From the IMG/VR virus record IMGVR_UViG_3300033146_001635, positions 30,584-94,583 of that record: DNA of 64,000 nt; one strand, 5' to 3'. Made by a program: the position numbers and the translations under genes. Within the stretch, counting starts at the first letter, position 1, and each line of letters begins with the position of its first letter. Source of the DNA: a virus. The notes under the pieces are model-generated. The model did not search any database. It was given only the letters and a program-made list of their open reading frames with translations, and was not told where the DNA came from. Shown here in pieces: positions 4,371 to 52,615 of the stretch.

Positions 4371-4434
4371 GTTTTTTCTCCTTATCTTTGAGTTTTACAC
4401 TACTATATCTTCTCGAAATATAAAGTGGTATCTA

Positions 4435-4451
4435 TATCGATATTATGTTCC
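4435..4451 (-). promoter_or_regulatory. Late-promoter motif upstream of zinc-ribbon hub gene
   Basis: Minus-strand match to the recurrent RRGAACATAWWAWTGAW motif (here GGAACATAATATCGATA). It is one of ten copies in the window, each just upstream of a minus-strand unit. Confidence 0.55.
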
Positions 4452-4475
4452 TATCTTAAAAGAAATTTTTATGAT

Positions 4476-4553
4476 TTATTTGTTACGTAATTTAGATATC
4501 TTATTTTGAATCTGTTGTCTACATTTTAATGGATCTGTAGATTTTTTACACAT
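4476..4553 (-). pseudogene. C-terminal remnant of the Cys-helix paralogue family
   Basis: A 25-codon frame beginning MCKKSTDPLKCRQQIQNK and ending KISKLRNK. It is nearly the same as the last 26 residues of the neighbouring 360-residue paralogue (MCKKSSNPIKCRHEIQQK...). It lies 7 bp after the stop of the 226-residue paralogue. The best reading is the tail of a family member whose body was replaced or deleted by recombination between paralogues. It could still be translated as a micro-peptide. Confidence 0.7.
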
Positions 4554-4560
4554 AATAAAC

Positions 4561-5241
4561 CTATTTTTTGATTTTCTTTTGAATCTTTTTTATTTCACTC
4601 TGTATTTTTTCTCTATATTTAGAAGGATTTTTTGTTTTATTAGATAAATCAAGAGATTTTTTCAAAGTTTTAATTTTCATTTGATATGCTTTATTTTGAT
4701 AATTAGTTATACAAGCCTGTTTTTCATCACCAGTTTTACCTTTACAATATTGTGCAGCTTTTGAAAAATAATTTTTATATATTTTATAAGCACCCGCGAT
4801 AGCAATAGCAGCCAAAACAGTCCAACCTATTTCAGTAGAATGATCTTTAATAACATCTAAAATAGAATGAGGATGATTTACATCGGGTACTATTGAATGT
4901 GAATTAACTGTAGGATGTGGTTTATTTTCAACATAATCTTTATGCAAGTTAGTTGGAACAATTGATTTTGTTCCAGTATCAGTTTTATGGAATTTTTTAG
5001 GAATTATACTTTCTGATAATAAAATATCAAAATCATGTTTCAAATCTTCTATTAAATACGTAACTACAGATGGACCAAAAACATCTATACATTCAAATAA
5101 ATTATTTTGTAAAAATAAAGCAGCTTGCCCTAATTCTGCAATTTCTTCATGAATATTTAACCATTCTAAATCTGGATTAGTTTCAAATATATCTTTTTCA
5201 TTTCTATGAATATAATGCACTGATTCATATAAGATGCCCAT
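4561..5241 (-). CDS. Cys-helix family virion-type membrane protein, paralogue A
   Basis: 226 residues. The N-terminal half is acidic and unlike the other paralogues. A single hydrophobic segment (about residues 140-158, WTVLAAIAIAGAYKIYKNY) is followed by the family's C-terminal module: YFSKAAQYCKGKTGDEKQAC, then basic helices with the NPSKYREKIQSEIKKIQKKI pattern. The second cysteine pair of the module is lost here (NPSKYR where relatives have NPxKCR). Function unknown. It lies between tail and baseplate genes, so a virion or ejected protein is plausible. Confidence 0.6.
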   Translation of the reverse strand: MGILYESVHYIHRNEKDIFETNPDLEWLNIHEEIAELGQAALFLQNNLFECIDVFGPSVVTYLIEDLKHDFDILLSESIIPKKFHKTDTGTKSIVPTNLHKDYVENKPHPTVNSHSIVPDVNHPHSILDVIKDHSTEIGWTVLAAIAIAGAYKIYKNYFSKAAQYCKGKTGDEKQACITNYQNKAYQMKIKTLKKSLDLSNKTKNPSKYREKIQSEIKKIQKKIKK

Positions 5242-5253
5242 CAGTAATCTCCT

Positions 5254-6336
5254 TTAAATCCTATTACGTAATTTAATAATTTTTTGTTGAATTTCATGTC
5301 TACATTTTATAGGATTGGATGATTTTTTACACATTCCTATTGATTTTTGTAATACTTTTATTCTTTCATTAATAGCTTTTCTTTTAAATTGTATTATACA
5401 ATCATTCTTTTCTGCACCACTTTTATTACTACAAGCTTGCCCAGCTTTTGAAAAATATCGTTGATATGCTTTATACGATAAATACCCGGCTACACCAACT
5501 AAAGCAGCTACCCCAATTGTTGTTCCGTGATTTTGAACAAATTGATATACTTTTGGAAAATTATCCTGTAATTTATGTGCTAAATTTGTAAAAAATCCAT
5601 CTGTTTCTTTTGGTTCAAGAACATGTGGGGAAGGTTTTGTTTCTATAATTTTAGGAGTATTTTTGATTTTTTTTGGTTCAGATGGTTTTTCTTTACTTGT
5701 ATCATTATTAGAGCCAGTAGCTAATTTATGTAAATTTTTTAAAAAAGTTTTTCTCGATTCGTCACTTGCCTTAACAGATTGTTCCATTGATGAAGATTCT
5801 TTTGGTTTAAAGCCAACTTTTTCAGGACCCTGACCTATATTAAAAGCCTTTTTAAAATTATCCACCATTTTTTTGTTAGATGGATTTTTCAAATCTTTGT
5901 TAACCAAATTTAAATTTTTTATTTTTTTAAACATTCGTTGATTTGATGGTTTTTTCAAATCAGATTTAATCATATTAGTTATATCAGTAGCTATATCTTC
6001 ATTAAGAATATTTTTACTTGTAATACTTTTTAATGATCCAATTTCATGAATAAAATTATATATAACATCATTATCAATAATTTCAGTTAAATTATAACTA
6101 TAATCAATAATATGATTTTTTAATTTGTTTAATAAAATATTCTCATATAATTCTATATTCACATTTTTAGGAGATTTTTTTCCAATTATAGCATAAGACA
6201 ATACATCTGTATCTGATAAATTATTTATAGATTCAGATATAGTAATATTATTTTTAAAATTTTCTTTTAATGCTAATCGAATAAATTCAATTAATAAAGA
6301 ACTTTCAAAAATATTTATATGTTTATTAATAAACAT
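5254..6336 (-). CDS. Cys-helix family virion-type membrane protein, paralogue B
   Basis: 360 residues. An N-terminal helical domain of about 85 residues contains the family motif LSDTDVLSYAIIGKKSPKN. Residues 128-165 hold two imperfect repeats (DLKKPSNQRMFKK and DLKNPSNKKMVDN). A Lys/Pro-rich linker follows, then a TM segment (IGVAALVGVAGYLSYKAYQR), then the four-cysteine C-terminal module (AGQACSNKSGAEKNDC ... MCKKSSNPIKCRHEIQ). Close relatives lie on both sides, so this is a tandem expansion. No known function. Confidence 0.65.
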   Translation of the reverse strand: MFINKHINIFESSLLIEFIRLALKENFKNNITISESINNLSDTDVLSYAIIGKKSPKNVNIELYENILLNKLKNHIIDYSYNLTEIIDNDVIYNFIHEIGSLKSITSKNILNEDIATDITNMIKSDLKKPSNQRMFKKIKNLNLVNKDLKNPSNKKMVDNFKKAFNIGQGPEKVGFKPKESSSMEQSVKASDESRKTFLKNLHKLATGSNNDTSKEKPSEPKKIKNTPKIIETKPSPHVLEPKETDGFFTNLAHKLQDNFPKVYQFVQNHGTTIGVAALVGVAGYLSYKAYQRYFSKAGQACSNKSGAEKNDCIIQFKRKAINERIKVLQKSIGMCKKSSNPIKCRHEIQQKIIKLRNRI

Positions 6337-6358
6337 TTTTTAACAAACTCCTAAAATA

Positions 6359-6398
6359 ATATGTGACCCCATATTAAAAATAATATGGGGCCACATAT
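6359..6398 (-). terminator. Hairpin between paralogues B and C
   Basis: Inverted repeat with 17-bp arms (one mismatch) and a 6-nt loop, GC-rich in the middle (CCCC/GGGG). It follows the stop of the 372-residue paralogue on the minus strand, with a short T-rich run after it. It acts as a terminator or as an mRNA-stabilising hairpin. Confidence 0.6.
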
Positions 6399-6420
6399 AA
6401 CCAAAATAATAAATTATAAA

Positions 6421-7539
6421 TTAAGCTAATTTAGCTTGTAATTTAGAAATTTTAGCAGTTAAATCGGTACGACATTTGGCGGGATTGGTTGCAGCTTTAC
6501 AACCAGATAATGATTTTTTCAGCATATTAATCTGTTGTTTAACAGCTTGCTTTTTAGCATTGGCAATACAAGCTGATCTTTCAGCCCCAGATTTACCTGC
6601 ACATGATTTAGCTGCCTGTGAAAAATATCGTTGATAAGCTTTATATCCAAGAAAAGCCGCCATAGCAACAAGAGCAGTAACACCAATGGCCTTAGCATGA
6701 CCACCACTATGTTGATTTACAAATTGTGTAAAACCTGACCATGCTTTGGAAATATTTTGACCCACATTACCAGCAGCAGCTCTTAAACGGTCTAACCATC
6801 CTGTTGCAGCCACTTCTTTAGGTGGATTTTTAGCAATCTCATCACCAACACCGCCCATATCTGAATGATTATTTTGTTTAGCAATATCATCACCAACACC
6901 ACCCATATCTGATTTATTTGCAGCGCCAGTTGTGCCTGCTGAATTGACCCCTTTAAATTCACCTTTATAAGAAGGGGTATAAACTTTGTGGGTTCCTGCT
7001 TGAGTTGGATTGTCAGCAGCCGCAGATGCATTAGACTGCCGCATAGCTGCATCAACTGCATTTTTTGAATATGTATGACTAGTGCCACCACTAGAATTAA
7101 CACCACTAAATTCACCAGCTCTAGAATTTGGATATCTATTACCAGAATCCGCACCAGCTAATTTACTATATTTTTCAGTTAAAATCCCTTCCTGAATTAA
7201 AGTCATGGAATCGGAATCAACCATTGATAATCCACCAATTTCATGAATAAAATTAGAAGGTGTATAGCCATCATCAAAAGGTAATTCACTAACATGCTCT
7301 AATACAAAATCTTTAAGATTTGACATTAAGTATGTTTCAGCCAGAGCAGGATTATCAGTAGGACAAGCCTTGCCATACATAGCAAGTGATAATACTTCAC
7401 AATCCTTAGCATCTTCTGTGATATACTTGATAGTTTCAGCTGGTGCATCTTTTTCCTTTAGATTTTCAACCAGAGCCTGACGCATGAAACCCATGAAAAT
7501 AGCACTATCTTTGACATTAATTGATTCATTTAAAAACAT
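6421..7539 (-). CDS. Cys-helix family virion-type membrane protein, paralogue C
   Basis: 372 residues. The N-terminal domain carries the family motif (AKDCEVLSLAMYGKACPTDN). The middle is low-complexity with two kinds of internal repeat: GEFSGVNSSGGT / GEFKGVNSAGTTG, and SDMGGVGDDIAK twice. A TM segment (IGVTALVAMAAFLGYKAY) is followed by the complete four-cysteine module (AKSCAGKSGAERSAC ... GCKAATNPAKCRTDL). Base composition is clearly higher in GC than its paralogues, which suggests high expression. It lies next to the tail tube gene, so an abundant virion component is likely. Confidence 0.65.
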   Translation of the reverse strand: MFLNESINVKDSAIFMGFMRQALVENLKEKDAPAETIKYITEDAKDCEVLSLAMYGKACPTDNPALAETYLMSNLKDFVLEHVSELPFDDGYTPSNFIHEIGGLSMVDSDSMTLIQEGILTEKYSKLAGADSGNRYPNSRAGEFSGVNSSGGTSHTYSKNAVDAAMRQSNASAAADNPTQAGTHKVYTPSYKGEFKGVNSAGTTGAANKSDMGGVGDDIAKQNNHSDMGGVGDEIAKNPPKEVAATGWLDRLRAAAGNVGQNISKAWSGFTQFVNQHSGGHAKAIGVTALVAMAAFLGYKAYQRYFSQAAKSCAGKSGAERSACIANAKKQAVKQQINMLKKSLSGCKAATNPAKCRTDLTAKISKLQAKLA

Positions 7540-7593
7540 TTTAATTTCTCCTTAATATTAATATTAAATAATATTACTTTTTTTTGTTAAAAG

Positions 7594-8313
7594 TTACTTA
7601 TTTATTTTTTTTTTCAAAGCTTTTTCAAGTTCATTTTTAATTCTATCACCACTATAACTACGGCATTTTTCTAAAACCCAATCTTCATGCCAAACATAAT
7701 CAACATTGAACTCAATTTCTGGTTCAATTTTACCAACATTTTCAACATCTGAAGATAATAAATCTTGTGGATCTTTAGTTGGAAAAACACCGGTATAACA
7801 AGCATAATATTCAACAGTTACTCCATCAGGCGCAGTAGTCCAATAATATAATCTAGCAGCATACTGTTTTTTAGAATAACCAGTTCTATCATTACCAGCA
7901 ATTAATTTAGATGATACACCAGTTCTATAATCACGAATACCTTTAACCCATTCATGAAAAATCTGACAAATAGGAAGACCTGAATATTCAACAAATTTTA
8001 TGGAAATAGAATCTCCATAATCAATGCTACCCGGCACTGCCCATTTTGTACCACCCAAACCTGTAAATGAAATTTTATTTAAAGTTCCACCGGGTGGTGT
8101 AACAGATAAACAACTACCAGCTAATAAAGCTTGAACTTCCTTATCTGTTAAATTACCTGGCACTGTATTGGCATCTACCTTAACAATTTCTGGAAGATAA
8201 TCAAACCATATATGATGATATCCTGTTACATATGGCTCTGCAATGCCAACTAACGTACCACCCATATTTCTGGTAGCAACTTGTTTTGTAACATTAGTAA
8301 ATGAATTTAACAT
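7594..8313 (-). CDS. Tail tube protein (gp19-like)
   Basis: 239 residues, placed directly after the sheath gene in transcription order as in T4-like phages. The N-terminus (MLNSFTNVTKQVATRNMGGT) and the internal SIKFVEYSGLPICQIFHEWV / GIRDYRTGV segments fit the tube family. A KCRSYSGDRIKNELEKALKK tail ends the protein. The tube forms the inner channel of the contractile tail. It is separated from the sheath gene by a strong hairpin, as expected if tube and sheath need different mRNA levels. Confidence 0.8.
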   Translation of the reverse strand: MLNSFTNVTKQVATRNMGGTLVGIAEPYVTGYHHIWFDYLPEIVKVDANTVPGNLTDKEVQALLAGSCLSVTPPGGTLNKISFTGLGGTKWAVPGSIDYGDSISIKFVEYSGLPICQIFHEWVKGIRDYRTGVSSKLIAGNDRTGYSKKQYAARLYYWTTAPDGVTVEYYACYTGVFPTKDPQDLLSSDVENVGKIEPEIEFNVDYVWHEDWVLEKCRSYSGDRIKNELEKALKKKINK

Positions 8314-8335
8314 AATTTAAATCTCCTCTATATAG

Positions 8336-8365
8336 GAGTGGGTAGGGAATTACCCCTACCCACTC
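8336..8365 (-). terminator. Hairpin between sheath and tube genes
   Basis: Perfect 12-bp GC-rich stem (GAGTGGGTAGGG / CCCTACCCACTC) with a 6-nt loop, just after the sheath stop. Terminator or mRNA stabiliser. Confidence 0.7.
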
Positions 8366-8376
8366 TTATTTATAAT

Positions 8377-10332
8377 TTATTTGATATAGAAATTCAATTC
8401 AATCTTTTCAGTTACCCGAGTCGGGGTTAATGTAACATTGACATGAAAAGTTTTTGTTTTCTTTTCATAATCACTTGCACCAACTTCAATTGAATAACTA
8501 TATAATCCACGTCTAGATGAAACATCTTCCAGAAAACTGGTAATATCATTACCAACACTATCCCAAGTTGTATTATCATTTAATTCAAAAATATAAAAAC
8601 GACAATATCTTTCAAGAGCTTCCTTACAATATAATACAAGACGAACAATATTCAGATCTTGCATTGCACTTGGTTTAGCTTGGGTTGTTAGTTGCCCCCA
8701 AACAGCATAACCAATATTAAATTTAACAATTGGATTTAACTGTCTAAGATACATTTGATCTCTTTGTTCAAGACGAGGATTAAATCTCAATTCTTGAATA
8801 GAATCAATAACACCTCTTTGGAATCCAGCAATAGCATACCAGACTTCTGATACATTATCATTTCTCGGAGCTAAATATGACATATGATACAGAGGGGATA
8901 CCCAAATATCTGCGCCCGTAAATGCATCAAAAATCTTATTATATCCTTCATATAAAGCACATAAATAAGTATTGAAATTATGATCAGAATTTCTTTTGGC
9001 CATAGCTGTATTGAAATCAGTATTATCACCATTGTCTAATAAGGCAACACAATCACGACGAGTATTAACTAATTGAGAAATGGATTGTTTTACTGATGTT
9101 GGATAACCAGCATCAAAAACAATAGTATAATACATTTTTTCTCTATCAAGTATTTCCTCATCTAAAATACCAGCATATCCTTGTGCTAATAAAGTTTCGC
9201 ACATAGGCATATTAACATTATGGTTTATATCATATATAGAACCATCTGAACCTTTTCTAAGAGCGATTTCACCACCGATAAAAGGTTCTGTTAAATCTGA
9301 TAAATCTTTACGAATATAATATTCAACACTATAATCAGTATCGTCAAAAATAGCTGTATCACCAATCCATTCTTGACTAGCGGTTGATAAATCTCTATCA
9401 TTAAAAATATTTACAGTTTCATTGTCAACACCAGAAGAAGCACCTAACCACCCATATAATCTATTACCACGTTGGTCAATTGCAACAATAGCATATGTCG
9501 AAAGCCCAGTTTCAGCTTGATTAGCCCATTCACTAAAATCTTGTTTAAGATCTGTAATAGAAGCTAATCCTGGTGTTCTTTCTGTAGTGCTTGTACCAAT
9601 TCTATTATCATAATTTTTAACGCATAACTGATACCCCGGTGAATATTCACCATTTGGAAGCATACATTCCGCTCTTAATAAACTTGAATATTTTTCAAGA
9701 ATATCAGTAATAAAAATAGAATCACCAGATGAATCTCTGGCTTCTGGGTTAAATGAAACAGAAAATGATTCAACAATTACTTCATCCCCATCAGCTTGTT
9801 TTTCATATATATCTATAATATATACACCTTCAAACATTGGATTGGCATGTCTAGTTAATCGAACTGAAACTAGATTATAATAATCACCACGACCAATTGG
9901 GTGTAAAATACAAATTGGATATGTATCACCAACTTGTACTAAATTTGATTGAATTTCTGCTTGTGTTGAAATACCACTAATATAAGTAGTTAAAATATCA
10001 GCTGTAGAATCTGTACCATTCCAAACAGCATCAATCCTTAAATTAGAGAATGTTGCATCATCTGGCATAACACGCATAAACCATAATGAACCAGATTCAC
10101 CAAGATAGTTATAAGCATTATATAAACCTTGCCCATAATGTTTCCCAAAAGTGGTTATATTAGGTTCACCCCATTCACTAATTAATTCATTTCGTGACCC
10201 AACAAAAATAGCCTCGTTATCACGACCTTTTTTTGTTAGAGCACACATAAAACCTGTTGTAGCAGGAACTGCTGAAACGTATGTAGAAAGATCAATTATC
10301 TTCGTATATACGCCCGGTGAAATATGAGCCAT
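8377..10332 (-). CDS. Contractile tail sheath protein
   Basis: 651 residues, the normal length for a T4-like gp18. The start reads MAHISPGVYTKIIDLSTYV, the typical sheath opening with the PGVY motif. The C-terminal third contains the conserved domain (SAMQDLNIVRLVLYCKEALE ... DITSFLEDVSSRRGLYSYSI) that forms the intersubunit mesh. It polymerises around the tube and contracts on infection. GAGGT-type ribosome site before the ATG. Confidence 0.93.
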   Translation of the reverse strand: MAHISPGVYTKIIDLSTYVSAVPATTGFMCALTKKGRDNEAIFVGSRNELISEWGEPNITTFGKHYGQGLYNAYNYLGESGSLWFMRVMPDDATFSNLRIDAVWNGTDSTADILTTYISGISTQAEIQSNLVQVGDTYPICILHPIGRGDYYNLVSVRLTRHANPMFEGVYIIDIYEKQADGDEVIVESFSVSFNPEARDSSGDSIFITDILEKYSSLLRAECMLPNGEYSPGYQLCVKNYDNRIGTSTTERTPGLASITDLKQDFSEWANQAETGLSTYAIVAIDQRGNRLYGWLGASSGVDNETVNIFNDRDLSTASQEWIGDTAIFDDTDYSVEYYIRKDLSDLTEPFIGGEIALRKGSDGSIYDINHNVNMPMCETLLAQGYAGILDEEILDREKMYYTIVFDAGYPTSVKQSISQLVNTRRDCVALLDNGDNTDFNTAMAKRNSDHNFNTYLCALYEGYNKIFDAFTGADIWVSPLYHMSYLAPRNDNVSEVWYAIAGFQRGVIDSIQELRFNPRLEQRDQMYLRQLNPIVKFNIGYAVWGQLTTQAKPSAMQDLNIVRLVLYCKEALERYCRFYIFELNDNTTWDSVGNDITSFLEDVSSRRGLYSYSIEVGASDYEKKTKTFHVNVTLTPTRVTEKIELNFYIK

Positions 10333-11087: not shown

Positions 11088-11104
11088 TTCATTTATATGT
11101 TCTC
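11088..11104 (-). promoter_or_regulatory. Late-promoter motif upstream of 10388-11050 gene
   Basis: Minus strand GAGAACATATAAATGAA, a close match to the window-wide motif. The ATATAAATGA core resembles the T4 late promoter TATAAATA. It would also drive the downstream sheath gene. Confidence 0.65.
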
Positions 11105-15668: not shown

Positions 15669-15700
15669 CGTACCTCGATTAATTTAATAAATTATATTAC

Positions 15701-15717
15701 TTCAATAATATGTTCCC
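15701..15717 (-). promoter_or_regulatory. Late-promoter motif upstream of amidase gene
   Basis: Minus strand GGGAACATATTATTGAA, about 33 bp upstream of the amidase ATG. It is probably the start of the long leftward structural transcript. Confidence 0.65.
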
Positions 15718-15797
15718 ATATTTATAATAAAATACGAAGATTATATATATTATATATTAGAATAAAATAACTTTTAATTTTACACAGGAGGAATGAA

Positions 15798-30382: not shown

Positions 30383-30427
30383 AAAAATAAACTCCGATGA
30401 TACCAACACAATAATAGAATAGAATAA

Positions 30428-30444
30428 TTCATTTATATGTTCTT
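30428..30444 (-). promoter_or_regulatory. Late-promoter motif upstream of tail-fibre unit
   Basis: Minus strand AAGAACATATAAATGAA, identical to the consensus, 46 bp upstream of the chosen fibre ATG. The rest of the gap to 30558 is AT-rich and must hold the divergent promoter for the rightward genes. Confidence 0.7.
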
Positions 30445-30557
30445 ATATTTTCATAGAAAATTACATTATTGAGTTTATAATAAAATTCCAAAGTTATATA
30501 TATTCAATTATAATTTATACTAGATATTATTATTTTTTATGGAGGATAATTTTAACA

Positions 30558-32089: not shown

Positions 32090-33031
32090 ATGTATACAAC
32101 AATTGATAGTATCAATAATGTGCTTACATCATATAAAAATGGAAACTACAATGTTATTATTTTAAAAGATGGTACTAAAATTAGACAAACAATTGATAAT
32201 GAATTTCAACCAGATTTTCCAGAATCAATGGATGTTAAAATAACAAATAGATGTGATTTAAATTGTAATTATTGCCATGAAAATTCTGTAGAAAATGGTC
32301 GGCATTGTAATATTGAACAATTAATTTCAGTTTTAAAAAATTTTCCAGTACCCGGTGTTGAATTAGCCATTGGTGGTGGTAATCCATTGGAACATCCATA
32401 TCTTATTGATTTTTTACAATGGGCTAAATCTAATGGATTTATTTGTAATTTAACAATAAATGGTAAACACATAAATCATATTTTAAATAAAATTATAGAA
32501 AAAAATCTAATTCATGGATTAGGTATTTCATATACAAATGAAACAGAAAAATTAATTGAATATCCCCACACAGTCTGTCATTTAATTGCAGGTATTCATT
32601 CTATTAAGAATATTCAACATGCATTAGATATATATGGAAAAGTTTTAATTCTTGGATATAAAAATGTAGGGAGAGGATCTACTTTTGGAGTTAAAAACAA
32701 TAAAGAAATAAATAATAATATTCTACAATTATCAAATAATTTATGGAAATTATTTCAACACGAAGGTATTATAAGTTTTGATTGTTTAGCAATTGACCAA
32801 TTACATTTAAAAAAATATTTTACTAACCATGAATGGGAAACATTTTATATGGGCGATGATGGAAAGTTTTCTATGTATTTTGATGCTGTTAATATGATAT
32901 ATGGTAGAAGTTCAACATTACAACACAGAGAAATGGAATTTTGTAAAGATATTCATATATTTAACTTTTTTAAAAAAATATCCAATATAAAAAGAGACAT
33001 AGATGAGGTGATTAATAATGTTAATAAATAA
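32090..33031 (+). CDS. Radical SAM protein
   Basis: 313 residues. Canonical CxxxCxxC iron-sulphur motif (C55, C59, C62 in NRCDLNCNYCHE), a GGN-type motif (LAIGGGNPLEHP) and a likely beta6-barrel core. The C-terminal 120 residues are not a recognised SPASM domain, although a late Cys is present (FCKDIHIF). The reaction is unknown. It overlaps the next gene by 14 bp. Confidence 0.8.
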   Translation: MYTTIDSINNVLTSYKNGNYNVIILKDGTKIRQTIDNEFQPDFPESMDVKITNRCDLNCNYCHENSVENGRHCNIEQLISVLKNFPVPGVELAIGGGNPLEHPYLIDFLQWAKSNGFICNLTINGKHINHILNKIIEKNLIHGLGISYTNETEKLIEYPHTVCHLIAGIHSIKNIQHALDIYGKVLILGYKNVGRGSTFGVKNNKEINNNILQLSNNLWKLFQHEGIISFDCLAIDQLHLKKYFTNHEWETFYMGDDGKFSMYFDAVNMIYGRSSTLQHREMEFCKDIHIFNFFKKISNIKRDIDEVINNVNK

Positions 33032-34564: not shown

Positions 34565-34984
34565 CTAAGTTAGCTTACCGGGAATGATAGTAATCTCCCC
34601 AGAATAATTCTCCCACGTATCTTTCATTCTTTGAATTACGTCCGATGGGACGTTATGAATTGATTCAAATTCCCCCTGGATGCTATATATATAGCATGGT
34701 ATATGTAGCTTATTAGCTAAATCTACATATTTAAAAACCTCCCAACACTTTACAAAAGTATTGGCAACAACAACACCAAAACCATTATTCAAATAAATTT
34801 CGGTTGTTTTAAAACACCAATCATGTGCTGACACTATGTTTTCTGGTTTATACTGATACACCCCACATACCATGTGATACATATCAGCTTCCAGTAACAT
34901 ATGATCAGAAAAATGATTTTTAGCATAAGTTGACTTACCAGATCCAGGAATTCCCCTAAGTAAAACCAATTCTGTGCGTTTCAT
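34565..34984 (-). CDS. PNK-like P-loop kinase
   Basis: 139 residues. Walker A GIPGSGKST at 11-19, a LLEADMYH segment, and a C-terminal VPSDVIQRMKDTWE lid similar to the 5'-kinase domain of T4 polynucleotide kinase. No phosphatase domain. May phosphorylate 5' ends of RNA or DNA during repair. It is the only minus-strand gene inside the early block and is isolated by the terminator. Confidence 0.7.
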   Translation of the reverse strand: MKRTELVLLRGIPGSGKSTYAKNHFSDHMLLEADMYHMVCGVYQYKPENIVSAHDWCFKTTEIYLNNGFGVVVANTFVKCWEVFKYVDLANKLHIPCYIYSIQGEFESIHNVPSDVIQRMKDTWENYSGEITIIPGKLT

Positions 34985-35067
34985 AAAACCTCCTTGTTAA
35001 AGTTAAATCAAAGATTATTTTTAAAAATAAATATATATAGCTAAACAGTTTAAATAAGGAAATAATT

Positions 35068-35358
35068 ATGGATGTAAATGAATTTGTCGAATGTATAAAT
35101 TGGATTGATAGATGTTTATTTCCTGAAGATTTTATTAATGATTTAGTATCTTTGGGAATGGATATAGATCTAGCTAATCATATTATATGGAATTTATATA
35201 AAACTAAACAATTATCTATTATGAACTGCTATAAATATTTTCGAAGTGATATGGGAGATAAAAATATTATTCTTAAATATATAACAAATAATTACAAAAA
35301 CTTCCAATTATATAAATCAGGAGATAACAAGGATGGATCTCAATATACCAAATCCTAA
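35068..35358 (+). CDS. Small helical protein, unknown
   Basis: 96 residues. Aromatic and acidic N-half (ECINWIDRCLFPEDFINDLV) that looks like a small three-helix domain. Overlaps the next gene by 26 bp. Upstream 35000-35060 is AT-rich with a TATATATA stretch that may be a promoter. Confidence 0.5.
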   Translation: MDVNEFVECINWIDRCLFPEDFINDLVSLGMDIDLANHIIWNLYKTKQLSIMNCYKYFRSDMGDKNIILKYITNNYKNFQLYKSGDNKDGSQYTKS

Positions 35359-35890
35359 TATGGAATATGCCTCTGTTATAATGGATTTAAAAATTAAAGT
35401 TTTAAAAGATGTATTTAAAATGGATAAAGAAATATTAGACAAATATTATCCATCACAATTGCCAAAAAACGAAAATGAAATATTGCCAAAAGATGTATGG
35501 CAAAATTATATGTTGGAGTCTTTTTATATGCAGTTTACTCCAACATTTTATAAACAAGATAAACCATGTGTATACACAGATTGTATGATTTTTGATGCTT
35601 TCTGTACAACATATGATAGTTGCCCTTTTTGTATAGCAAATCGAATTAGAAATATTAAATATCCGGGAGAGGGAAAGGGAATTTGTTATACATGTTCATA
35701 TGGTAAAAATTTCGGAATTTGTACCAAGATGTATTCATCATATAATTCCGCAATATATATAAAAAATGATAAAAAAAAATCAATCGATTCAAAAATTATA
35801 TTTGATAAATTTATCGAATCAATTGATTTAACTCGTAACCACGAAATTGTTAAACAATTCTGTAAACAATATGGACTAGAAAAATTTTAA
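35333..35890 (+). CDS. Cys-rich unknown protein
   Basis: 185 residues with about ten cysteines, clustered at residues 80-130 (YTDCMIFDAFCTTYDSCPFC, GICYTCSYGKNFGIC). This looks like one or two metal sites. AGGAG ribosome site 9 bp before the ATG. No known family. Confidence 0.5.
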   Translation: MDLNIPNPNMEYASVIMDLKIKVLKDVFKMDKEILDKYYPSQLPKNENEILPKDVWQNYMLESFYMQFTPTFYKQDKPCVYTDCMIFDAFCTTYDSCPFCIANRIRNIKYPGEGKGICYTCSYGKNFGICTKMYSSYNSAIYIKNDKKKSIDSKIIFDKFIESIDLTRNHEIVKQFCKQYGLEKF

Positions 35891-35915
35891 CATTATATAA
35901 TAGGGAGTATATTTC

Positions 35916-36401
35916 ATGGCTACTTGTGATGTACCCGGGGCCAACCCCAATAACAATGACGAATTACATCCCGGATGTTGGGCTGAAGCTGATGACAACT
36001 CTTTAATTTATGTCGAAGGAGTATCAGAAACTGAGAATATTGTTATTTATTCGATATTTGATTTAACTGACCCAAACAACCCTCTGGAATTTAGAGATTC
36101 AATGCCGATAGATGGTTTTGAACAAATATTTAAAAACAGTCCCGATACTTGGACATGGCATGACAAAACAGCTTTTCCGTGGCAAAAAATCATGTCCATT
36201 TTTAAAGATGGTTCCAAAGTACCAAGTGCTGACCAATTGATCAGTGCAGCCCAAAGGATTGTTAAAACAAGAAAAATATATAAATCAAATAAAATAAAAA
36301 AAGATGATATTAAAGAAAAAATTGATAATAGCTACATAACAAAAACAGGCCATGTGATTATTGATAAAATTCAAAGGGCTTTAAATGAATTAAGGAAATA
36401 A
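35916..36401 (+). CDS. Conserved-type phage protein, unknown
   Basis: 161 residues. The N-terminal half has LHPGCWAEADDNSLIYVEGV, IVIYSIFDLTD and TWHDKTAFPWQKIMS, a compact beta domain layout that I associate with conserved phage hypotheticals. Basic helical C-terminus. GC content is higher than its neighbours. GGGAG ribosome site. Confidence 0.5.
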   Translation: MATCDVPGANPNNNDELHPGCWAEADDNSLIYVEGVSETENIVIYSIFDLTDPNNPLEFRDSMPIDGFEQIFKNSPDTWTWHDKTAFPWQKIMSIFKDGSKVPSADQLISAAQRIVKTRKIYKSNKIKKDDIKEKIDNSYITKTGHVIIDKIQRALNELRK

Positions 36402-36404
36402 TCT

Positions 36405-36722
36405 ATGGAAGAACTAATAAGTGGAAAATCAATTCAACGTACAGATATGGAATGCACTGAATGTTATAAAAATTTCATAGCAGAACTTGATTATTCAATT
36501 AATGGTAATCATGTTATCGAATGTCCTTTATGTGGACACGAACATTGTAGAGTTATAGAAAATGGAAAAATAACTAGCGATAGATGGGATTCTCGTAAGC
36601 AACGAGTAAATGCCAAAACAAGAAGAGTTTGGAAAGATTCAGTTTTACAAATTAAAACATCTGCGGCATCTGCATTTATACGTAATAGATGGCTGAATCT
36701 TAATGAAGAAGGTTCATTATGA
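36405..36722 (+). CDS. Zinc-ribbon protein
   Basis: 105 residues. Zinc site from MECTECYKNF and ECPLCGHEHC, followed by a basic segment (SRKQRVNAKTRRVWKDS). Likely nucleic-acid binding. ATGA-type overlap with the next gene. Confidence 0.6.
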   Translation: MEELISGKSIQRTDMECTECYKNFIAELDYSINGNHVIECPLCGHEHCRVIENGKITSDRWDSRKQRVNAKTRRVWKDSVLQIKTSAASAFIRNRWLNLNEEGSL

Positions 36723-37312
36723 GCAACACTCAGATAAGAATACCATACCAAGTGCCAATAAATTATTCTATTACATCTTCCACAGATACAAATTTGACAA
36801 CAACATCAACATCAACATATCCATACATCACTATTGATACAGATACATATAATTATATCACCAATGTAATAGGATTAAATAAAAATAATTCATATAAATT
36901 ACCTAATGGTGGTACATTAAAAATTGATGAATTAGGTAATTTCAAAATTATAGAAAATAACAATATTACTTACAAATCTTGTAATATAAGAGAATTTAAT
37001 AAATACATTAATGCCAGTGATCTTTTGGAAGGATTTATCAATTTTCTCGGAGAGCAAGGCATGAAACAAATAGATGTATTGAAAACTCCGATTGAGATTT
37101 TTATAACTTGGTTAATATTTAAAGCAGCAGAACAAGATAAGATAGATGAAGAAACAACCTTAAAAGAATTGGAAGATAAAACAAAACAATTAAAACATTC
37201 AAATAGATGCTTGTTTTGTGGAAAATTTATTTCTAAAAAGTTTAAAAAATTAGGAATAAATTTTTGCAATACATTGCACTTAGAACGATATATGGAAAAG
37301 GTTCACATATGA
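36719..37312 (+). CDS. Unknown protein with C-terminal zinc finger
   Basis: 197 residues. Thr-rich N-terminus, a middle beta/helix domain (SYKLPNGGTLKIDELGNFKI), and a C-terminal zinc-finger-like CLFCGKFISKKF ... FCNTLHLERYM. Overlaps the next gene by 4 bp (ATGA). Confidence 0.5.
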   Translation: MSNTQIRIPYQVPINYSITSSTDTNLTTTSTSTYPYITIDTDTYNYITNVIGLNKNNSYKLPNGGTLKIDELGNFKIIENNNITYKSCNIREFNKYINASDLLEGFINFLGEQGMKQIDVLKTPIEIFITWLIFKAAEQDKIDEETTLKELEDKTKQLKHSNRCLFCGKFISKKFKKLGINFCNTLHLERYMEKVHI

Positions 37313-37629
37313 TTTTCGATTTGAAAATAACATTTGTTTTAGAACATAATAATGATCCTCCTTTTATAAGAGGTGATTATCATATATGTATTTCAAATAT
37401 ACGCAATAACAATGGAGTTATTATGGATAATGGCCATGTGCATGCTTATTATGAACATGGTATTCAATTATTTAAAGATGAAAACTGCACTATATCTGAT
37501 ACATTATTTAATAAATTAAAAAACTATTTAGAAGAAGATCCATTTAAATATGATTCAATTTTTGAAAAAGCTATTGAAAAATTTAATAATCAATTTCAAT
37601 TGTTTTATGAAGAAAACAATATAAACTAA
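37309..37629 (+). CDS. Small unknown protein before the hairpin array
   Basis: 106 residues from the ATG at 37309 (ATGA overlap, AAAAGG site). Beta-rich N-half (DLKITFVLEHNNDPPFIRGD) and helical C-half. Its codons for EHNND include a plus-strand copy of the late-promoter motif (37341-37357). Last gene before 3 kb of non-coding repeats. Confidence 0.5.
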   Translation: MIFDLKITFVLEHNNDPPFIRGDYHICISNIRNNNGVIMDNGHVHAYYEHGIQLFKDENCTISDTLFNKLKNYLEEDPFKYDSIFEKAIEKFNNQFQLFYEENNIN

Positions 37630-38854
37630 AATAAACAAAAAAATATAATTTGATTATCGAATGTTAAATTTATTAAAAATTGCACAATATTATATTGTGA
37701 AAATACAGGGTGTAACTTATTAATAATCATAAAAATTTGCACATTAATAAAATGTGACCACTCGGATAACAATTGCTATTTATAAAAATAAAATTACACA
37801 ATATTATATTGTGAAAGTAACGAGTGTAACTTATTAATAATCATAAAAATTTGCACATTAATAAAATGTGATCCGATGGACATAGACTATTATTTATAAA
37901 AATAATTATATTGTGTCGAATTGAATAATGTGGGTCCCCTATATATTTAATATTTTATATTTTTGAATTTGCACATCAATAAGATGTGATGTAGTAGATT
38001 CCCGTCTAACAAATATAAAAAAATTTGCATATCAAAAAGATGTGACATGCTTTCCTGGTAGATCCCACTATTGATAGTTATAAAAATAAAATTACACAAT
38101 ATAATATTGTGATTGAGAAATATGGTGACAATATAAAATAATATATTATAAAACTACACATTGTAATAATGTGTCCGAGTGCCGGAGTCGAAAATATTAT
38201 TAGATTTTGCACGTTAATAAAACGTGACTGCGGACTTTAACATCTATTTATAAAAATAAAATTACACAATATTATATTGTGAAAGAAAATAAGGAGCAAA
38301 ACTTATTAATAATCATAAAAATTTGCACATTAATAAAATGTGACCAATGGGGACAATGCAAAATAATATATTATTATAAACTACACATTGTAATAATGTG
38401 TCCGTGTGCCAGGATCGTAAATATTATTAGATTTTACACATTAATAAAATGTGACACAGTCGATATCAACACCTATTTATAAAAATAAAATTACACAATA
38501 TTATATTGTGAAAAAAAATAAGGAGCAAAACTTATTAATAATCATAAAAATTTGCACATCAATTAGCTGTGACATCCCTTCGCTTTCAATCCTTCATAAA
38601 CAATTAATTAATATATTAATAAAAAATAAAATTGCACAATATTATATTGTGAGAGGACAGAATGTAACTTATTAATAATCATAAAAATTTGCACATTATT
38701 AAAATGTAACATTCGTTCCACCTATACGATCTTTCATAAACACTCAATTAATATTAATAAAAATAAAATTACACAATATTATATTGTGGAAAGTAGGAAA
38801 TGTAATTTATTAATAATCATAAAAATTTGCACATCAATTAGATGTGACACACCT

Positions 38855-39554
38855 CCTCGACTTTTACCAACTTCATACATAACAATATATCTAAATTATC
38901 TATTAAATATTTAAATTTGCACATTAATAAAATGTGACCGTTGATGGATGAATTTCATACATAACAATATATCTAAATTATCTATTAAATATTTAAATTT
39001 GCACATTAATAAAATGTGACCATCCTACTGGATGAATTTCATACATAACAATATATCTAAATTATCTATTAAATATTTAAATTTACACATTAATAAAATG
39101 TGACCCATATGTCGTGATTATACTAACTTCATACATAAAACAATATATCTAAGTTATTTATTAAATATTTAAATTTGCACATTAATAAAATGTGACCACG
39201 GTGGGGCAGATATCAACTTCATACATAAAACAATATATCTAAGTTATTTATTAAATATTTAAATTTGCACATTAATAAAATGTGGCCAGGGTTGAACAAA
39301 TATCAACTTCATACATAAAACAATATATTCAAGTTATCTTTTAAACATTTAAATTTGCACATTAATAAGATGTGACCTCGGTTGAGCAGATATCAACTTC
39401 ATACATAAAACAATATATTCAAGTTATCTTTTAAACATTTAAATTTGCACATTAATAAAATGTGACCACCGTGGGGCAGATATCAACTTCATACATAAAA
39501 CAATATAATCAAGTTATTTATTAAATATTTAAATTTGCACATTAATAAAATGTG
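38855..39554 (+). repeat. Sub-array with 82-92 bp units, exact 90-bp period in part
   Basis: Eight type A units share a long flank (TTCATACATAAAACAATATA ... TTAAATATTTAAATTTG). Cores at 39178, 39268, 39358, 39448 and 39538 are exactly 90 bp apart. The flanks are near identical, while the 13-15 nt after the hairpin differ: CACGGTGGGGCAGA, CAGGGTTGAACAAA, CTCGGTTGAGCAGA, CACCGTGGGGCAGA, CTCCCTTCCCCTTC. Confidence 0.9.
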
Positions 39555-39898
39555 ACTCCCTTCCCCTTCTGGATCCTTCATATAATATCAATAAAAATAA
39601 AATTGTACAATATTTTATTATGACAATTTCTGACTAAAACATATTATTATATTTCATATTTTTAAATTTACACATTAATAAAATGTGGCCGGCCTTCTCT
39701 CTTATATATCTTGTTTATTTACAAAATTACAAATTATTTGCATATTAATAAAATGTGACTTGAGCGTGCGGTTGATAAATATTAAGATTTATAAATAATA
39801 AAATTACACAATATTATATTATGATAACCCCGATTAACCAATACATGTTATACAATTATATATAAATTAATACAATATTATCAAAATTTTAAAATTTG

Positions 39899-40608
39899 TA
39901 CATCAAAAAGATGTAACTTGGAAAAATAAGATTGTTTATTATTATTATATATTCAAAAATTTGTATATCAAAAAGATATAACGATGATTGTCATAACTAT
40001 ACATATTTAAATTTGCACATCAAAAAGATGTGACAAACTGGAACCTTGCAAAAAAATATGACAAGCTGGGATTTGAATTAATAAATATATTTAAAATTTG
40101 CACATCAAAAAGATGTGATTGGATGCTTACAACACATAAGTATACAATAAATTATTCTAAATACAGGTGGATGAGATTAATTTACTCACTTGTATTTAAA
40201 ATTTGTACATTAAAAAAATGTAACTTTAAAAAATTGTTTATTATTATATATTCAAAAATTTGTATATCAAAAAGATATAACGATGAAGGTCATAACTATA
40301 CATATTTAAAATTTGCACATCAAAAAGATATGACCCGAAAAAATTGCTTATTATTATATATTCAAAAATTTGTATATCAAAAAGATATAATGACGTGGAA
40401 GGAATACTAACATACATATTTAAAATTTACACATCAAAAAGATGTGGCTATACCGGAGTACACCATACATATTTAAAATTTACACATCAAAAAGATGTGA
40501 CATGTTTTATTCTCCTATCAAATATATAAAAATTTACACATCAAAAAGATGTGACATACTTGATTTCCCCTATCAAATATATAAAAATTTACACATCAAA
40601 AAGATATG
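39899..40608 (+). repeat. Distal sub-array of CAAAAAG-loop hairpins
   Basis: Twelve units with an AAAAA-type loop. Stems include CACATC/GATGTG, TACATC/GATGTA, TATATC/GATATA and TACATT/AATGTA. A block of about 100 bp (39930-40033) is repeated at 40230-40332. Spacing is shorter (about 50-60 bp) than in the 90-bp block. Confidence 0.8.
40159..40197. repeat. Degenerate copy of the 40639-40677 terminator inside the array
   Basis: Sixty bases at 40145-40204 match 40625-40684 with five differences, an offset of exactly 480 bp. The copied hairpin is weakened (two G-U pairs and one mismatch). Shows that the array end was duplicated together with the neighbouring terminator. Confidence 0.8.
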
Positions 40609-40638
40609 GCGGCCAAAGAATATCCAATAAATTATTTT

Positions 40639-40677
40639 AAATACAGGTGGATAAGATTAATTTATCCACCTGTATTT
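40639..40677. terminator. Terminator at array/acetyltransferase boundary
   Basis: Perfect 16-bp stem (AAATACAGGTGGATAA and complement). It overlaps the stop codon of the gene ending at 40676 and would also stop rightward transcription out of the array. Confidence 0.75.
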
Positions 40678-41191
40678 AAAATTTTATCATATATTGGAAT
40701 TCACCAAATTTTTTATCATTAGCACTAAATAAAAATTTAAAACCATTTTTTTTATAAAAAGGCATAATATCTTTTTTACATGATAAACCAATTCCATAAT
40801 CAGAATATTTATATGGTATATTTTCAACAGCTGATAATAATTCAGTACCAATTTTTTGTTTCTGATATTTTTTATCTACGATTAACCAATTAATAACTCT
40901 TATAAATTTTTTATTATATCCAGCTTTTTTTAAAGCATGTTTTAAATCTTGGTGTAATTTAACAATATCTACTACTTTAATTGATATTAAACCTATTAAT
41001 TTTTTTTCAGGATTTTGTGCTAAAAGGATTGAAGCATAAGGTGGGTATTTTTGAGAATAACAGATTTTAGATTTTATTTCTTTTGGAGTCCAATTATTAT
41101 TAGAAGAAACAAAAGAAAAAGATTGATTAAATAAATCAGCAATCTCTTTCTTTCGATCTATACATTCTTCTGGAGATAATTTATTAATCAT
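40676..41191 (-). CDS. GNAT-family acetyltransferase
   Basis: 171 residues. The GNAT core is visible: KKLIGLISIKVVDI (strand 4), NWLIVDKKYQKQKIGTELLS (acetyl-CoA loop, Q/RxxG form) and PFYKKNGFKFLF (C-terminal motif). Substrate unknown. No clear ribosome site before the ATG; a duplicated fragment of this same gene lies just upstream, so the 5' region may have been rearranged. Confidence 0.7.
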   Translation of the reverse strand: MINKLSPEECIDRKKEIADLFNQSFSFVSSNNNWTPKEIKSKICYSQKYPPYASILLAQNPEKKLIGLISIKVVDIVKLHQDLKHALKKAGYNKKFIRVINWLIVDKKYQKQKIGTELLSAVENIPYKYSDYGIGLSCKKDIMPFYKKNGFKFLFSANDKKFGEFQYMIKF

Positions 41192-41226: not shown

Positions 41227-41270
41227 ATTGATATTAAACCTATTAATTTTTTTTCAGGATTTTGTGCTAA
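41227..41270. repeat. 44-bp exact duplicate of an internal acetyltransferase segment
   Basis: 41227-41270 is identical to 40980-41023 inside the acetyltransferase gene. It supplies the last codons and the stop of the adjacent Cys-helix gene in a different reading frame. Confidence 0.9.
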
Positions 41271-41679
41271 TTGGAAGATGATAAAACGATGGTTGAAATA
41301 TTCCTGCTATTCGTTGGTTTTGTTTTAATTGTTGAATAAGTTTTTCTTTTTCTTTTACAAAAGAAGGTTTGTTATAACATTTAAGTCTTTTTTCACGATC
41401 TTTAAGTTCAAAACATCTTGATCTTACTTTTTCTAAAATATATATTTTCTTTTCTAAGAATACTTTTCTAACATCTTGTAAACATTTTTCTTTTTTAATA
41501 CCATCATATTCTTTACATCTTTTTTCACCTTTTTTTAAAATATCATAAACTTTTTTTTGTTTATAATATTGCCTAACCAAATGCAATGAAATACCTATGG
41601 CTAAACCTAATACATTTACAGCTCCAAAATCTTCTGTTATAATTTCATCAAAATATTCTAATAAATATTTATTATCCAT
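41254..41679 (-). CDS. Cys-helix family protein, paralogue E (altered C-terminus)
   Basis: 141 residues. A hydrophobic N-terminal part (VNVLGLAIGISLHLVRQYYK) is followed by KGEKRCKEYDGIKKEKCLQD, VRKVFLEKKIYILEKV and further Cys (SRCFELKDREKRLKC). It is a tandem relative of the next gene (shared KCLxDVRKVFLEKKI). The last seven residues and the stop come from the 44-bp acetyltransferase duplicate, so the original C-terminus has been replaced. Confidence 0.6.
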   Translation of the reverse strand: MDNKYLLEYFDEIITEDFGAVNVLGLAIGISLHLVRQYYKQKKVYDILKKGEKRCKEYDGIKKEKCLQDVRKVFLEKKIYILEKVRSRCFELKDREKRLKCYNKPSFVKEKEKLIQQLKQNQRIAGIFQPSFYHLPISTKS

Positions 41680-41703: not shown

Positions 41704-42216
41704 TTAAACTTTTGGTTTAGTACCAGCATGTTTTGTATCAAACCACCCTCTTTTTGCAATATCATAAGATGGTTGGAGTCCAAATCCTGCTACATTTCTA
41801 TCATTCTTTTTTCTTTCTTCTTGAGCTTTGGTTATTTGTTTAGCTATAGTTTCACGACATTTTTTATTATCACCACATTTAGCCATAGCTTGTTGTAATG
41901 CATGTATTTTCTTTTCAAGAAAAACCTTTCTAACATCCATTAAACATTTCTCTTTTTGTTTCCCAGAATATTTATCACATCTTTTCTTACCATTAGCTAA
42001 TATATCATTAACTTTGTATCTATCTATAAAATATCTAGTTAATCTTCCAGCAATAGCACCCACGGATGCAGCCGCAACCATAGATAATAATTCTTCTGTC
42101 AAATATTGATTATCTTCAATTTCGATAGTATTATTTTCAAATTCATTAATTATATTTAAATTTTCTGTTAACCTAACACATTCATCAAAATTTTCTAAAA
42201 TAAATAATTTATTCAT
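41704..42216 (-). CDS. Cys-helix family protein, paralogue F
   Basis: 170 residues from the ATG at 42216 (GGAG site 6 bp upstream). One hydrophobic segment (LLSMVAAASVGAIAGRLTRY), then KKRCDKYSGKQKEKCLMDVR, and a second Cys pair (AKCGDNKKCRETIAKQI). The order matches the family module of the 4561-7539 genes. Function unknown; membrane association likely. Confidence 0.6.
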   Translation of the reverse strand: MNKLFILENFDECVRLTENLNIINEFENNTIEIEDNQYLTEELLSMVAAASVGAIAGRLTRYFIDRYKVNDILANGKKRCDKYSGKQKEKCLMDVRKVFLEKKIHALQQAMAKCGDNKKCRETIAKQITKAQEERKKNDRNVAGFGLQPSYDIAKRGWFDTKHAGTKPKV

Positions 42217-42232
42217 TATAATCTCCATAATA

Positions 42233-48571: not shown

Positions 48572-48588
48572 TTCAATTATATGTTCTT
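48572..48588 (-). promoter_or_regulatory. Late-promoter motif
   Basis: Minus strand AAGAACATATAATTGAA, 29 bp upstream of the 48543 ATG. Confidence 0.65.
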
Positions 48589-48633
48589 TATTTTATTTTA
48601 ATATCATCAATTCTATTATATATATATTAATTA

Positions 48634-48805
48634 ATGATACCACAAAAATTAAGTTTTGTGGTATCATCTCCACAAAGGAGAGAACGCTAGCTGGTGCGTT
48701 AAATAAAATTCGGTATTCGGTATCAATCTCCGAATTAAAAAACAAGATTGACCAGAATCAAGTCAGTTTGCAGCTCTGACTTAAAACAAAAGCTGCTTTT
48801 TTTTT
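48634..48805 (+). ncRNA. Candidate structured RNA with repeated hairpin loop and pseudoknot terminator
   Basis: P1: 14-bp stem 48634-48647/48654-48667. Alternative SL1: TTTGTGG (48655-48661), loop TATCATCT, CCACAAA (48670-48676). SL2: ATTCGG (48715-48720), loop TATCAATCT, CCGAAT (48730-48735). SL1 and SL2 have different stems but nearly the same GG-TATCA(A)TCT-CC loop. Further stems AACGC/GCGTT and GATT/AATC. The end is GTCAG (48762) / CTGAC with GCAGCT inside the loop, which can pair with AGCTGC (48791-48796) before nine T: a pseudoknot or terminator. Standalone RNA or a 5' leader of the gene at 48934. Confidence 0.6.
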
Positions 48806-48933
48806 AAGATATAAATACAACTATATATATTATTTTTTGATTAATAAATTTATCTTTAATAAAAGGAGGTTTAACTGAATACTTTAAATCTGTGATTGTT
48901 TTTTATTTAACTTATTAAAAAGGATTTGAGATT

Positions 48934-51866: not shown

Positions 51867-52295
51867 TTATAATTTAATTTTCTTTTGAATTTTATACATT
51901 TTATTTTTTAATATTGTTTTACATTTTTTTGGATTATCAGTTCTATTACACAATGACATTTTCTGTTTTATATAATGAACTTGTTTTTCATGCATTTTCC
52001 TAGTTAATTCATCAATACATTTTTTCTTGTCAATACCAATAAAATGTCCACAATGTTTTTCTAATTCTTTTGCTTCTTCTTTAATTTTTTTATAATGTTT
52101 AGCTATCAAAGCAATTATAAAAGAAATCAACAAAATAACAAATTCATTTAAATAAACTTTCTCATAAGTTCTTTCAATATAATCATCTGAAAATTCATTA
52201 AGAAATTTATCAGCATTTTTATAAACCTCTTCTATTTCAGATGATTGACAAAGTTCATATAAAAAAATTCTTTTATCACCTATCGATGTGTGCAT
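51867..52295 (-). CDS. Cys-helix family protein, paralogue G
   Basis: 142 residues from the ATG at 52295 (AGAAGG site). A TM segment (YLNEFVILLISFIIALIAKH) is followed by EKHCGHFIGIDKKKCIDELT and SLCNRTDNPKKCKTILKNKM, then a basic end. This is the full four-cysteine module seen in the 5254 and 6421 genes. Confidence 0.6.
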   Translation of the reverse strand: MHTSIGDKRIFLYELCQSSEIEEVYKNADKFLNEFSDDYIERTYEKVYLNEFVILLISFIIALIAKHYKKIKEEAKELEKHCGHFIGIDKKKCIDELTRKMHEKQVHYIKQKMSLCNRTDNPKKCKTILKNKMYKIQKKIKL

Positions 52296-52615
52296 AAACA
52301 ACCTTCTTCAATTTGATTTAAAGATTCTTTTAACATTGCTAATTGATAAGGTTTCATTCTTACATATTTATTATTTATATTAAAATCTATTTCATATTCA
52401 GTATGTTCAGATAAATCGTCTATGTTAGAAATAATACTATCAATATCATGTATGATAGTATTAAAATGTTCTTTTAAAAATATTACTTTATTATCATAAT
52501 CATCTTCCAAAATATATTGCCCCATTGAATAATCTTCACGGGTTCCATCAGAAAAATCAATAAACAATTCTGGACAACAACCCTGTCCCCTACATAATGT
52601 CATAATCTTTTTCAT
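52280..52615 (-). CDS. Small acidic protein, unknown
   Basis: 111 residues. Starts MKKIMTLCRGQGCCPELFID, with a CxxxxxCC cluster, and ends with EGCLCTHR. Overlaps both neighbours, so part of a compact operon. No family recognised. Confidence 0.5.
   Translation of the reverse strand: MKKIMTLCRGQGCCPELFIDFSDGTREDYSMGQYILEDDYDNKVIFLKEHFNTIIHDIDSIISNIDDLSEHTEYEIDFNINNKYVRMKPYQLAMLKESLNQIEEGCLCTHR

Follow-up and report, generated by a model that had tools for sequence, protein, structure and literature searches.

A phage-borne array of base-paired hairpins with diversified tails as a candidate set of guide-like RNAs

The viral record IMGVR_UViG_3300033146_001635 spans 94,583 bases, and the work described here concerns a 64-kb window of it (positions 30584-94583 of the record; 27% guanine plus cytosine, GC), to which all coordinates refer unless the record is named. 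Between 37676 and 40634 of this window lies an array of 43 short hairpin units in which a constant handle is followed by a diversified tail. The stretch may be a transcribed array of short guide-like RNAs, each with a hairpin handle at its 5' end; this is the explanation that we favour, with somewhat less than even confidence.

The hairpin array

The hairpins were located with a 26-nucleotide (nt) covariance model (R1) built from the units themselves (alignment A2). In the window the model finds 43 hairpins, every one on the + strand, at 37676-40610 and with scores of 27-45 bits; after these the score falls to 17 bits, mostly from the same palindromes read in reverse, and the rest of the 94.6-kb record holds no further hairpin by this model. 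An initial annotation of the window had counted about 44 hairpins, which is right to within one, and two extra places look decayed. It had also described the stretch as gene-free: 37630-40675 indeed contains no credible gene and is the longest gene-free gap in the record. Coding sequence within the array was rejected, since frames differ between tails, ATG-TGA falls at hairpin ends and the open reading frames (ORFs) are spurious. No transfer RNA (tRNA) genes or known RNA families were found in the array, which belongs to no Rfam family; Rfam gave no match at the gathering threshold and sub-threshold matches only at E up to 5. The start-to-start spacing of the units is 52-118 nt (median 61.5), and the array is laid out as follows.

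37676-40634, + strand: whole array of 43 units, each composed of an AT-rich linker, AAATTT, a purine, a 17-nt hairpin, AC and a variable tail of about 15 nt
37676-38860, + strand: left block, 19 hairpins, the CACAATATTATATTGTG type mostly alternating with the CACAT type, and ACACATTGTAATAATGTGT in two units
37900-37940, + strand: two decayed hairpins whose 5' arms are gone, read from the sequence
38861-39598, + strand: middle block, 8 hairpins in tandem units of 82-92 nt with near-identical linkers and differing tails
39599-39840, + strand: mixed units, 4 hairpins with partial stem mismatches
39892-40634, + strand: right block, 12 hairpins of the CACATCAAAAAGATGTG and TATATCAAAAAGATATA types, in units that are either short (52-57 nt) or longer
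40046-40064, + strand: one decayed hairpin with its own tail-like stretch, read from the sequence

The hairpin is a base-paired element. Its 17 nt form a stem of 6 base pairs and a 5-nt loop made mostly of A, and 248 of the 258 stem cells hold Watson-Crick pairs, 97% of cells being paired. The main types are CACATT..AATGTG, CACATC..GATGTG, CACAAT..ATTGTG and TATATC..GATATA; types seen as single units include CACGTT..AACGTG and TACATC..GATGTA. The covariation score reaches 0.423 vs. 0.196 in shuffled alignments, none of 500 shuffles scores as high, and registers slid along the alignment give at most 0.171. Two-sided stem changes occupy 27 cells vs. 8.4 in shuffles and occur at five of the six pairs; such cells are non-independent events, and about 6-7 separate compensatory changes are counted by reading.

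The flanks of the hairpin are asymmetric. AAATTT followed by a purine precedes it in 43/43 units, AC follows it, and the 20 nt before it are conserved and AT-only (GC 0.06). The conserved sequence before each hairpin had been named in the initial annotation as a distinction from arrays of clustered regularly interspaced short palindromic repeats (CRISPR), and this is borne out. The one-way orientation together with the asymmetric flanks points to an element that acts as a single strand, RNA or DNA.

Diversified tails and their possible role

Hairpin and tail are connected by a junction of constant length, 2 nt, and the tail measures about 15 nt, which narrows the 10-20 nt proposed earlier. The tail columns (+19 to +33, hairpin base 1 being 0) have an entropy of 1.8-2.0 bits, near-maximal, and a GC of 0.43 vs. 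0.232 in other intergenic DNA (binomial p ~4e-29), in line with the earlier description of the tails as variable and locally GC-rich. They are also diversified among units whose handles are nearly the same: the 21 unit pairs with at least 95% identity over the 44-nt handle have a mean tail identity of 0.36, the background being ~0.27. Units 39002 and 39086, for instance, are identical at all but 1 of 73 positions in flank and hairpin, and 11 of 16 tail positions differ (Fisher p ~1e-9, for pairs picked after inspection). In units 39178, 39268, 39358 and 39448, 7 of the 16 variable columns fall within the 14 of 90 positions that make up the tail (p 0.0026), and by this clustering of point changes tails change stepwise as well as wholesale. 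Some pairs, e.g., 38265/38494, retain the same tails. Most unit pairs share less than 70% of the handle, near-identity being confined to sub-groups, and the linkers are not frozen and are quite different between unit families, so that constraint on the linkers is insufficient to explain the tail difference.

These properties bear on the possibility that the array is a set of protein-binding DNA sites, serving replication, partition, packaging or as a decoy, in which a protein would recognise the palindromes and the tails would serve for spacing with no other role. It is typical of such sites that palindromes, here 43, cluster where AT-rich DNA without genes separates convergent operons, and the two-sided stem changes may partly be inheritance within unit families, which limits the covariation test. 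A dimer, however, would accept mixed half-sites, yet mixing is rare; there is no helical phasing of the spacing (R 0.18 vs. 0.15 by chance); the orientation is fixed and the flanks are asymmetric; and tails without a role would be expected to approach the local 23% GC, and not to outpace the neighbouring linkers in change. Replication or packaging sites, raised as an alternative at the outset, are thus disfavoured by base-pair covariation and tail-specific diversification, and DNA sites in general are an unlikely explanation. Were they the correct one, the tail-specific diversification would still need explaining.

As for guide-like RNAs, we count in their support that change in the tail is much faster than in the handle, with a high GC maintained, and that base-pair covariation, a single orientation, asymmetric flanks and a fixed handle-tail junction occur together. 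Neither self-folding of tails nor pairing between tails goes beyond chance, as is expected of free guides; unit 37740 has CACTCG and unit 37797 has CGAGTG, a tail-tail pairing seen by eye that was rejected as not above chance overall. On this explanation, + strand transcription of the operon that ends at 37629 would run on through the array, as its 3' portion, up to the terminator-like repeat at 40635-40681, and the transcript would be cut in the AU-rich linkers into RNAs of ~40-60 nt. A protein of the phage or of the host would hold the hairpin, and the tail would pair with a target, RNA or DNA, that is probably of foreign origin (the host, or a competing virus or element), because the tails match neither their own record nor each other. 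The sequence shows tandem duplication of units, whose tails would change afterwards in the fashion of an arms race.

Several observations weigh against guide-like RNAs. The handles differ much between unit families, which is unusual for one shared reader protein. The hairpins are weak, about one-fifth of them folding poorly in context on either strand, and wobble pairs number 4 for the + strand vs. 5 for the - strand, a count that leaves the strand undecided. The tails are often predicted to be paired within a long transcript. No partner protein was recognised among the ~105 ORFs of the 94.6-kb fragment in PADLOC and Pfam scans. The search for tail targets that the initial annotation had suggested came back empty: copies or targets in the own record or in three relatives, and matches to Escherichia coli ribosomal RNA and tRNA, are the same as for shuffled tails, and phage records contain no match. 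Finally, the evidence comes from the sequence of one array in one fragment genome. Strings of 19 nt from the tails gave 0 and 1 stretches in viral contigs and 1 in genome contigs (one string), which are too short for meaning.

Relatives of the array were likewise sought. Sequence and exact-pattern searches of phage records, IMG/VR and GTDB genomes, collections that may lack near copies of the record, found none. The covariance model and a scan for hairpin clusters over 1.01 Mb of related phages returned chance matches only; a two-hairpin pattern occurs at four loci in viral contigs, and the three that were read are unrelated. Neighbour proteins used as baits for syntenic arrays found no relatives, and in the nearest relative (G004) synteny ends before the array position.

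Transcription and surroundings

The array follows genes that run on the + strand and precedes genes that run on the - strand. The elements that bear on its transcription are the following.

35068-37629, + strand: genes directly preceding the array, with products without assigned function and no terminator-like site before the first hairpin
37340-37356, + strand: candidate late-promoter-like site TAGAACATAATAATGAT aimed at the array, within the last gene before it
40155-40204, + strand: diverged copy, within the array, of the inverted repeat at 40635-40681 (family D13)
40635-40681: bidirectional terminator-like inverted repeat of 20 bp that closes the array and also faces a GNAT gene on the - strand

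Other convergent gene pairs in the genome have a terminator-like hairpin between the genes; at the array, the matching element sits past the array and not before the first hairpin. Since the array follows a + strand operon with no intervening terminator and ends at a terminator, transcription on the + strand is more likely, and most simply the array would be the 3' part of the operon transcript. The lack of a + strand terminator before the array and the strong one after it are counted for guide-like RNAs. The initial annotation had proposed that each unit might be its own small RNA gene; the position favours a single long transcript instead. As for the diverged repeat at 40155-40204, three of its four changes leave G-U pairs in the + strand RNA, and this terminator copy suggests duplication as the origin of the right block.

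Foremost among the alternatives, and itself unlikely, is that the - strand encodes small RNAs, each from a separate promoter, in which a short variable 5' region leads into the hairpin and then into U-rich 3' sequence, as in an antisense small RNA with an intrinsic terminator. On that strand the hairpins are followed by YAAATTTTT, such terminator-like sites number four vs. one on the + strand, the four best sigma-70-like matches in the region (11/12) all lie on the - strand, and folding is about equal on the two strands. The stems are, however, short and AT-rich, the U-run begins only after four other bases, and promoter-like matches are at chance (49 vs. 42.5 +/- 6 in shuffles). Moreover, the bidirectional terminator at 40635-40681 would block - strand transcription from the right, and the array is without the late motif.

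This late promoter motif, RRGAACATAWWATTGAW, occurs upstream of more than 12 genes, 12-80 nt before many of them, with - strand sites in the window at 11104, 15717, 23431, 27126, 30444, 47995, 48588, 53540, 63004 and others; none lies inside the array. It fits the late promoter consensus of phage AR9, AACA-(6N)-TA/G (PMC5312081). The cores of a second motif, TATATATA, occur at 4.6 per kb in divergent regions vs. 0.6 in co-directional and 0 in convergent ones, and are candidate early promoters; divergent intergenic regions that contain it include 15669-15797, 30410-30557, 34985-35067 and 48577-48933. The last of these (79160-79516 of the record) is a divergent non-coding region of 357 nt with several hairpins besides promoter-like sites, and it could hold a small RNA.

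The AT-rich block, AAATTT and purine of all units resemble the early promoter layout of AR9, AAATATATATTAT-(6N)-G (PMC5312081). Each unit might accordingly be a promoter for the phage RNA polymerase, with an AT-rich block, six nt, a purine start and a hairpin at the start of the RNA. The hairpin promoters of phage N4 offer a further model for such units, and the present phage does encode a multisubunit polymerase. A matrix built from its other early-type sites, however, does not discriminate (3.8 on the units and 3.7 on their reverse strand, vs. 3.1 +/- 0.26 in shuffles), no gene lies downstream, and the tail diversification would be unexplained. We regard promoter units as improbable.

Known systems and the phage

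A constant handle joined to a variable tail is the type of signature that marks CRISPR and TIGR arrays, yet the array fits neither definition. Like type V CRISPR arrays, it is a tandem series of constant and variable parts, in which the constant part closes with the hairpin on its 3' side and a guide-like tail comes next. The repeats of Cas12a systems carry AAUUU 5' of the stem, to which the AAATTT of the array can be likened. Variable spacers between repeats are present, with entropy near random even between like handles, but the near-identical direct repeats of CRISPR are absent: the constant part diverges strongly between units, the stems covary, and the tail of ~15 nt changes stepwise and wholesale across the 43 units. 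No Cas family is found in the ORFs of the fragment (PADLOC and Pfam, family-level tables), and no machinery for spacer insertion was found there. Of the order resembling type V CRISPR RNA that was noted initially, the constant 5' handle with its base-paired hairpin and the hypervariable tail stand; a real relation to type V is not supported.

The units might nevertheless be borrowed or decoy CRISPR RNAs that mimic or use host CRISPR repeats, as guides for Cas proteins or as RNA anti-CRISPRs. The handle-hairpin-guide order would suit this, arrays that lack effector genes are known from some huge phages (PMC7162821), and RNA anti-CRISPRs (Racr) are known as solitary repeat units that resemble the host repeat (PMC10651486). 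Like the latter, the array would consist of phage non-coding hairpin RNAs, but its units are clustered and follow no known repeat, and 43 mutually similar units are the opposite of solitary, which tells against the solitary-repeat anti-CRISPR RNAs suggested earlier. In addition, the handles vary widely, a decoy needs no diversified tail, and the commonest handle pattern is absent from 84,980 genomes (exact match only). Such an origin seems quite improbable, and both it and promoter units are weaker than - strand small RNA genes or DNA sites. If the array were a decayed or host-dependent relative of CRISPR, its claim to be a new kind would weaken.

The tandem RNA repeats of type III toxin-antitoxin systems (ToxI-like) are ~35-57 nt long, near-identical, without a variable tail and placed beside a toxin gene; the array shares the tandem short repeats and differs in its variable tails, and no such toxin gene was recognised nearby. 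TIGR-Tas systems comprise units with two spacers of 8-12 nt bounded by box C/D motifs and a Tas gene with a Nop domain (PMC12045711). The likeness lies in phage-borne guide arrays, a stem-loop array variant, short spacers and a terminator after the array. The array, in contrast, has one variable stretch per unit and no second spacer before the hairpin, and the Nop domain (PF01798) has no match in the record at E up to 10. Identity with TIGR-Tas was dropped, there being no two-spacer box C/D units and no Nop protein.

By sequence features the array thus falls outside each definition tested, whether of CRISPR, of TIGR-Tas or of solitary RNA anti-CRISPRs; it is set apart by definitions, not by demonstrated function. 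Should the array prove to be transcribed, it would add another type to the known guide arrays, or else represent a large fast-evolving set of antisense RNAs; its phage brings an RNA polymerase of its own, and guide diversity would arise without a recognised spacer-acquisition machine. That it is a new RNA-guided phage system is a more doubtful proposal, which we put forward tentatively: each unit would have a single spacer of ~15 nt behind a hairpin handle at the 5' side, the units would multiply by tandem duplication, their diversity would come from fast tail change and not from known spacer capture, and a giant phage equipped with an RNA polymerase of its own would direct the system against its host or competitors.

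The virus is a myovirus, the record being a 94.6-kb fragment of an AR9/phiKZ-like phage. By sheath protein it is closest to uncultivated contigs as long as 312 kb, with distant relatives among giant phages, for example AR9 and phiR1-37. The phage has its own multisubunit RNA polymerase, represented in the record by beta- and beta'-type domains that Pfam recognises. By size, these domains most likely sit in proteins of 922 and 1018 amino acids encoded outside the window, at 4402-7170 and 7182-10238 of the record, which are conserved in relatives (4402-10238). The subunits are apparently unsplit here; phages of the AR9/phiKZ type are described as having fragmented ones (PMC5312081). The record also encodes RNA-repair and unusual proteins, namely an RlaP-type nucleotidyltransferase and a polynucleotide-kinase-like ATPase (34565-34984), together with two ThiF/E1-like proteins, a JAB-like domain, a folE2-type GTP cyclohydrolase, a radical-SAM protein (32090-33031) and MazG. 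Three small proteins on the - strand of the window (41254-41679, 41704-42228 and 51867-52301) form a paralogous family with the Cys-containing motif KRCxxY.GxxKEKCLxDVRKVFLEKKI.
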